Assembly: GCA_018830405.1 (NCBI GenBank)
Contig: JAHJSF010000163.1
Span: forward strand, 1 to 29,249
Direction: 5' to 3'
Length of the DNA stretch: 29,249 nucleotides
From: Nitrospinota bacterium
Lineage (GTDB): Bacteria > Nitrospinota > Nitrospinia > UBA9942 > JAHJSF01
The notes under the pieces are model-generated. The model was not told the DNA's origin. It did no database searches and saw only the letters and a program-made list of their open reading frames with translations. Below, piece after piece: positions 7,129 through 10,087 of this stretch. How positions within the stretch are numbered: the stretch's first letter is position 1; each line of letters begins with the position of its first letter. A program made the translations under genes and the position numbers.

Positions 7129-9197
7129 TTACTTAACAACAAGCTTACTAAAATCGGCTATTCCACTAAAGAGAGAACTAACCCTCTTAAGGAGGGAAAG
7201 CCTATTATCCCTGACAGTCGGCTCTTTATCCATAACCATTACCCCATCAAAGAAGAGGTCAACAGTCTCTCTGACGGCAACAACCTCTTTCAATGCCCCC
7301 TTATATTCTCCTCTATTGTATAGGGAGGAAACCTTATTCTCTACATTGATCAGACTTCTGTAGAGGGCCTTTTCGGCATCATCCCTGAAGAGTTGAGGAG
7401 ATACTTCGGGTAAGGAATCTACCCCTTTTAGAATATTCCCGACTCGATTAAAGGTAACAGCCAAAGACTCAAAATAAGGCTCTTTTTTGAGGGAAGCAAC
7501 CGCCTTAACCTTTTCGATATCATCGGTCAAATGGTCAAAACTGGCGGCAAAGACTCCATCTATTACATCATATTCTACCCCTCCGGCCGTAAGCTGATTC
7601 TTTAAGCGAGATATGAAGAAACCTCTTATATCTCTTTGAATTTCATCACTATTCCTTGTCAGCTTGGCTCCATAACACTCTATAGCCCTGATAATAATAT
7701 TGGATAGGCTAAAGTCCCATTTATTCTTCATTATGATATTCATAACGGCCAGTGACTGGCGCCTGAGGGCCAACGGGTCCTCTGATCCCGAGGGGATAAG
7801 CCCTACCCCGAAGCAACCGACAATAGAATCTATCTTGTCTGCAACATTTAGAATGGCCCCTATCTTAGTGGAAGGTAATTTGTCCCCGGCAAAGCGGGGG
7901 AGATACTGCTCAAAAAGTGCCTCCGAAACCTCCCTCTCCTCTTTTGAACTTCCGGCATAATCGCGCCCCATTATCCCCTGAAGCTCAGGAAATTCGTAGA
8001 CGACCTGGGTCATCAGGTCTGCCTTAGAGAGATGGGCGGCCCTAACGGCAGATTCTTTAAGGGAGGGATCAAGAAGCTCGGCGATATAGGCGGCCAAAAG
8101 CTTAACCCTGTCCACCTTCTCAGCCAAAGTACCCAACTTATCCTGCCAAACAACCTTTGACAGCTTGGAATTATAATGCTCAAGGGGCTCGCTTCTGTCG
8201 TTGGCATAAAAATATTCTGCGTCGGCAAATCTGGCCCTGACCACCTTCTCATATCCTTTACGGACCAATTTAGGTTTTGTAGAACGGTTGTTGCTGACAA
8301 CTACAAAATAGGGGAGGAGGTTGCCTTTAGTATCGGCTATGGTAAAACACTTCTGATGTTTTTTGATTACCTCTATAAGAAGTTCTTTAGGAAGTTTTAG
8401 ATATTTTTTCTCAAAACCACCGAGAATCGGGAATGGATATTCGGTCATACTTACCGTTGTCTCAAGGAGACCTTCATCCATTATAAGGCTCCCCTTAACA
8501 GAAGAGGCTAAAGATTTGGCCCCTTTAAGAATAATCTTCTCCCTCTCTTTTCTATCAACAATTACATAGCGTTTCAGAGATTTATCAAGATATGACTTAA
8601 GGTTACTGACCTTGAATTCCCTCGGGGCCAAGAAACGATGTCCGGTAGAAATGTCACCGCTTTTGATATCTCCAATCTTAAAATTGACCACCTCGGAATC
8701 GTACATAGCCACTATCCAATGGATCGGCCTGACAAAACGGGTTGCCCCCCCCCCCCCCTCATTGTCTTCGGGAAGGAGATAGATGAGATAATTTCTGGCA
8801 AGGCCTCGGCCAAAATCTTCTTGGTCTTCAGCCTATTTTCTTCTACAACAACGGCCAGATATTCCCCCCTATCCTTCTTTTCTACGTAGACCTTATCCAT
8901 AGAGACATTTTGACTTTTGGCAAACCCGATGGCAGCCTGGGTCGGTTTCCCCTCGGCATCGTATGATATACGTTTTGGGGGGCCGATTACAGTTCTCTTG
9001 AGGGCTTCTTGGCTCGATTTCATCGAATCTACATGTAAAACTAAGCGGCGCGGGGTACCGTCTACATAGATGTTTTCAAAGGGAAGCCTGTACTTGGTCA
9101 ATATATCGGAGGCCACCTTTTCAAGGCTGGCAATGGCGGAAGTAAGATAATTGGAGGGAATCTCCTCCATCCCTATCTCTAAAAGAAGTTCGCTCAT
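7129..9197 (-). CDS. glyS: Glycine-tRNA ligase beta subunit, reading frame broken at a G14 run
   Basis: Two adjacent frames make one gene. The upstream frame (from 9197) begins [20 protein letters not shown], typical of GlyS, and runs to MRGGGG, where it leaves frame. The downstream frame resumes with [14 protein letters not shown] and continues through an HD-type domain and the C-terminal anticodon-binding helices. The junction is a run of 14 G on the coding strand (8745-8758). Adding one G joins the frames into 689 residues, the usual GlyS length (that of the E. coli protein). The nearly invariant Trp of the MRWG motif is also replaced by Gly within the run. The gene overlaps glyQ by ATGA. 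GlyS forms the alpha2beta2 glycyl-tRNA synthetase with GlyQ and is expected to be essential, so an assembly error or slippage-corrected expression is more likely than a dead gene. Confidence 0.93.
8745..8758 (-). other. G14 homopolymer run inside glyS (frameshift site)
   Basis: Fourteen consecutive C on the plus strand (G in the mRNA). It lies exactly where the two glyS frames must be joined, and one extra G restores the frame. Such runs are prone to polymerase slippage and to sequencing or assembly error. Confidence 0.95.
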
Positions 9198-10087
9198 TTC
9201 TTCTTTCTTTTCCCCCCTTTCTTAAGGAGGGGGAAACCCTTCTCCTCTCTTGTTTTAAGGTAGCCCTCGGCACACTTTCTGGCTAGGTTTCTGACCCGGC
9301 CGATATAACCGGTCCGCTCGGTAACACTTATAGCCCCCCTGGCATCAAGCATGTTGAAGGCATGGGAGCATTTTAGACAAAAATCGTAGGCGGGGAGGTA
9401 TAGCCCTCTATCTATATTGGTCAAACATTCCCCCTCATAGATATCAAATATTTTAAGGTATGATTCAGGATTGGAGACCTCAAAGTTATAGGTAGAAAAC
9501 TCAACCTCATCCTGGTGATGAATATCTCCGTAGGTTATATCCCCCTTCCACTTTAGGTCGTAGACATTGTCTACCCCCTGCAGATACATGGCGATTCTCT
9601 CAATGCCATAGGTAAGTTCAACGGTAACCGGAGAAAGCTCTATACCGCCGGCCTGCTGGAAATAGGTAAACTGGGTAACCTCCATCCCATCTAGCCATAT
9701 CTCCCAACCAAGCCCCCAGGCCCCCAAGGTTGGAGACTCCCAGTCATCCTCAACAAAGTGGATATCATGCTCCTTAGGGTCTATATGGAGCTTTTTTAGG
9801 CTTTCAAGATAAAGTTCCTGAACATTTAAAGGGGAAGGTTTTAAGATAACCTGAAATTGATAGTAGTGCTGAAGACGGTTCGGGTTTTCCCCGTAACGAC
9901 CGTCGGTAGGTCTGCGGGAAGGCTGAACATAGGCCGCGCTGAAGGGTTCCGGCCCGAGTATACGCATGAAGGTAGCCGGATGGAAGGTTCCCGCCCCAAC
10001 CTCCATATCGTAGGGCTGCATTATCAAGCACCCCTGATCCGACCAGAATTTTTCTAACCTGCTTATAACTTCTTGAAAATCTAACAT
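9194..10087 (-). CDS. glyQ: Glycine-tRNA ligase alpha subunit
   Basis: A 297-residue class II synthetase subunit that activates glycine and charges tRNA-Gly together with GlyS. Motifs are textbook: [20 protein letters not shown] at the start, then [37 protein letters not shown] and [11 protein letters not shown]. The core matches the family in length (about 285-290), but the last dozen residues ([11 protein letters not shown]) are a basic tail encoded by a CCCCCC...GGGGGG palindrome that resembles the intergenic repeats of this genome. The stop overlaps the glyS start (ATGA), so the subunits are translationally coupled. cimA lies 51 bases upstream. Confidence 0.97.
9211..9236. repeat. C/G-run palindrome forming the glyQ 3' end
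   Basis: TTCCCCCCTTTCTTAAGGAG followed by GGGGAAA is a near-palindrome like the CCCCCTTA...AAGGGGG cores of the intergenic elements at 11825-11868 and 14580-14610. It encodes the basic tail of GlyQ. Confidence 0.5.

Follow-up and report, generated by a model that had tools for sequence, protein, structure and literature searches.

The window analysed here, a stretch of 29,249 nucleotides, lies on contig C150 of a draft genome that comprises 185 contigs with a total of 1,422,735 bases and is estimated to be 87% complete. On its minus strand lie glyQ and glyS, coding for the alpha and beta subunits of glycyl-tRNA synthetase (GlyRS), with glyQ overlapping the start of glyS by 4 bases (Table 1). 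Each gene is present in a single copy, and neither a second glyS nor a GlyRS of the alpha2 type was found above the cut-off in this genome, of which 13% may be missing. In the assembly, glyS contains a homopolymer of exactly 14 bases, read as C on the plus strand and as G in the direction of the gene, which is bordered on the plus strand by G (8744) and T (8759).

Table 1. Features of the glyQ-glyS locus (positions refer to the window).
Feature	Position	Strand	Remarks
glyQ, glycine-tRNA ligase alpha subunit	9194..10087	-	TIGR00388, E 2.1e-151; intact
glyS, whole	9197-7129	-	Directly after glyQ
glyS, N-terminal part	8712..9197	-	ATG start at 9197; TIGR00211 profile 1-147, E 1.3e-40
G14 run	8758-8745	-	C14 on the plus strand; likely mis-sequenced or misassembled; relatives encode W-G/x-D/x-x after M-R here
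glyS, C-terminal part	7129..8744	-	TIGR00211 profile 152-684, E 1.6e-192

The first-pass annotation had described glyS as split by this run into two portions that are one base out of frame, and both the sequence and the matches of the two parts to TIGR00211, the NCBIfam profile for GlyRS beta with 684 positions, confirm this description. The N-terminal part encodes 147 amino acids ahead of the run and continues past it out of frame up to a stop at 8712-8714, which gives an open reading frame of 161 amino acids. The C-terminal part, offset from it by one base in phase, is read from 8745 onwards, ends with the stop at 7129, and contributes 538 residues past the run; counted from its first start, the corresponding open reading frame (7129-8712) has 527 amino acids. 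Jointly, the two parts cover all of the profile except positions 148 to 151, and the C-terminal part alone scores 641.6 against a cut-off of 300. This part shows 42 to 51% identity to its relatives over its length and holds no stops. When rejoined, the two frames give a GlyS of 147 + 4 + 538 = 689 residues, which agrees with the normal length previously claimed for it, since most relatives have 688 to 720 amino acids. Outside the run neither part shows any decay: the frames are clean and the profile is fully covered. The locus thus resembles the bacterial tetrameric enzyme GlyQS in the order of its genes and in its profile coverage (1-147 and 152-684 of 684), and the G14 stretch is the only difference.

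The site of the run was compared with that of relatives. GlyS matches were obtained in 50 of 60 relatives, 80 more loci came from a second collection, and 109 loci were examined. The alignment from which tryptophan was counted was made without selecting for the motif, and the three loci truncated before the site were left out. Tryptophan directly follows M-R/K in every one of the 106 loci that cover the site. This conserved tryptophan of the M-R-W motif of GlyRS beta is absent from the assembly, where the G run stands in its place, in agreement with the earlier statement that its codon had been overwritten by G. The three nearest relatives covering the site belong to the same order, are approximately 50% identical, and include none of the same genus or family. 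Their motif is M-K-W-G-D-G or M-R-W-G-D-G, and the four codons from tryptophan onwards are TGG GGG GAT GGA, TGG GGG GAT GGG, and TGG GGA GAT GGA; the stretch is therefore rich in G with interruptions by T and A, as in AGG TGG GGG GAT GGG. A comparison of these codons had been proposed as a check, and it gave TGG at the tryptophan in all three and a G14 run in none. Among the 109 relative loci, which include no member of the same genus, neither a split glyS nor a conserved slippery tract was found.

Since TGG is the sole codon for tryptophan, a run made up of G alone cannot specify this residue, whatever the frame or the length of the run. Given the T and A interruptions at the site in the relatives, the run replaces non-G bases in addition to altering the length of the stretch. 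The missing tryptophan is taken as a mark of artefact and not as evidence against membership in the GlyRS beta family. Separately, no GlyS-beta match was obtained in six searched genomes of the same class (G007, G008, G009, G011, G012, and G014, from families f3, f4, and f5), and these families may use another type of glycyl-tRNA synthetase.

The G14 run is the only G run of at least 12 bases in the 1.42-Mb draft genome. There are 109 G runs of exactly 8 bases and 41 of at least 9; of the latter, 36 have 9 bases, two have 10, two have 11, and one has 14, so that the counts drop about fourfold per added base overall and the run in glyS stands isolated. A geometric extrapolation from these counts predicts approximately 0.026 runs of at least 14 bases, and the G14 run exceeds this chance expectation.

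Faulty places coincide with G runs elsewhere in this assembly too. A gene for a transporter of the RND/AcrB type has a +1 break at a G9 run (C131:10147-10155, equal to L156:1501-1509). Its two parts match the Pfam profile ACR_tran up to position 744 and, starting at residue 3 of the second part, from position 750, and at the break there are 10 bases where the profile has room for 3 residues. This break is probably an artefact of the same kind as the one in glyS. Furthermore, contigs C31 (L140) and C98 (L152) end, and contig C7 starts, within runs of 8 to 9 G, for example G9-A-G9-A, which suggests that G runs hinder assembly. The fault would be local and not present at every G run, because most of the runs of 8 to 11 G in this genome sit in intact frames. 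Two other candidate frame breaks, at an A8 run (L148) and at a G7 run (L192), were discarded, as inspection of the sequence by eye indicated ordinary boundaries between glucose-6-phosphate dehydrogenase and transketolase and between GrpE and DnaJ, respectively.

Runs of at least 12 G occur in 22 of the 60 class relatives and in none of the three single-contig genomes. In the regions extracted, these runs fall either at the ends of long reading frames or beyond them, and no housekeeping gene interrupted midway by a G run was found there. One relative (G010, approximately 30 contigs; L256, L257, and L258) carries runs of 23 to 26 G, again beyond or at the margins of long frames, which may be either real spacer tracts or artefacts.

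Taken with the fact that the change is limited to a single G-rich stretch, on either side of which the frames are clean, these observations make it very probable, as judged from sequence comparison, that the G14 run arose as an artefact of sequencing or assembly within an otherwise intact and normal glyS. The native sequence here is probably rich in G but interrupted, as in the M-R/K-W-G-D-G of the nearest relatives. Errors of base calling or consensus would have turned a few non-G bases into G, fusing the pieces of G into a single run with the loss of one base, and the cell would read glyS in one frame throughout to make an ordinary GlyRS beta. We infer the exact mechanism of the error and, the nearest relatives being only approximately 50% identical, the native bases. 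The earlier proposal of a collapsed homopolymer holds in that an assembly error is the kind of event favoured here, but a simple collapse does not account for the site, where non-G bases were lost too, including the T of the invariant TGG.

Errors of this kind have precedents. Among systematic Illumina errors, the strongest motif is GGT with its T changed to G (PMC3295828); on HiSeq instruments, substitution errors are most often preceded by GGG (PMC4787001); and homopolymers of 8 bases are mis-sized in sequencing (PMC11140927). As in the systematic errors of short reads, non-G bases following G tracts would have been miscalled in glyS, the reading of T after GG as G being the most characteristic change (PMC3295828; PMC4787001). 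In contrast to those errors, the one in glyS would be fixed in the consensus, would affect more than one base, and would include the loss of one base. For one class of the cases seen in a single genome, a survey of frame transitions in prokaryotes expected sequencing errors rather than true mutations (PMC3711429).

A different reading, offered by the first-pass annotation, is that the G14 run is real and that transcriptional slippage or -1 ribosomal frameshifting yields a full-length GlyS. In an extended form of this reading, the efficiency of slippage by polymerase or ribosome on the sole glyS would set the level of GlyRS. As a switch this would be remarkable if true; long homopolymers are slippery, and both frames of glyS are clean. 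Transcriptional slippage, ribosomal frameshifting, and replicative slippage alter only the length of a homopolymer, and for this reason the product would carry M-R-G-G-G-G-A-T-R and not M-R-W: changing the length of the tract restores the frame but not the tryptophan that all of the relatives covering the site possess. Moreover, the run is absent from all relatives compared, and no stimulatory RNA structure for -1 frameshifting was found just downstream of it, where the RNA folds no better than its shuffles (stem-loop z of -0.17). Frameshifts at homopolymers, possibly rescued by slippage, have been described mainly for poly-A/T tracts of insect endosymbionts such as Blochmannia and Buchnera (PMC3017870). 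The likeness lies in a housekeeping gene with a one-base offset at a homopolymer; in the endosymbionts, however, the tracts are of A or T in genes that are otherwise in frame, whereas here a conserved codon is replaced as well, the tract is not shared by relatives, and this genome has no abundance of long A/T runs, those of at least 9 A or T occupying only 11 positions. No paper on slippage in glycyl-tRNA synthetase was found with the search terms used. We consider slippage at a real run highly improbable, and a slippage-set level of GlyRS no less so; the proposed switch is not supported.

The run could also be real without being read through. One such explanation is a very recent inactivation, in which glyS would have become a pseudogene, either in this strain or in a fraction of the population, with a different GlyRS encoded in the unassembled part taking over its role. 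The estimated completeness of the genome leaves space for a missing second enzyme, but both glyQ and the remainder of glyS are intact, no GlyRS of the alpha2 type exceeds the cut-off, and several base changes plus a deletion would be needed, all in one G-rich stretch and with no other decay; we regard it as very unlikely indeed. Some bacteria use poly-G tracts for phase variation, and the presence of runs of at least 12 G in 22 of 60 class relatives is compatible with a replicative tract of mixed lengths in the population. However, a cell would not survive the switching off of its sole GlyRS, none of the runs sampled in relatives is located within a housekeeping gene, and the tryptophan codon is lost at whatever length, which reduces the probability of such a tract to a negligible level. 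Finally, two separately translated polypeptides might assemble, the second starting from GTG at 8712, where TAGTG provides a stop overlapping a possible start. Yet this GTG belongs to a conserved H-W-I-V stretch, the F-V-R-P-I-H-W motif conserved in relatives would fall in neither product, and none of the relatives has a split gene, and a two-piece enzyme is scarcely credible.

The evidence points to the G14 split of glyS being a fault in the data and not a real feature of this organism. Caution is accordingly due with long G runs in this assembly, which should not be taken as biology, and the frameshift in the annotation of glyS deserves a flag as a probable error. As a general lesson, a homopolymer that replaces a residue with a single codon, such as tryptophan (TGG), is not explicable by slippage alone.
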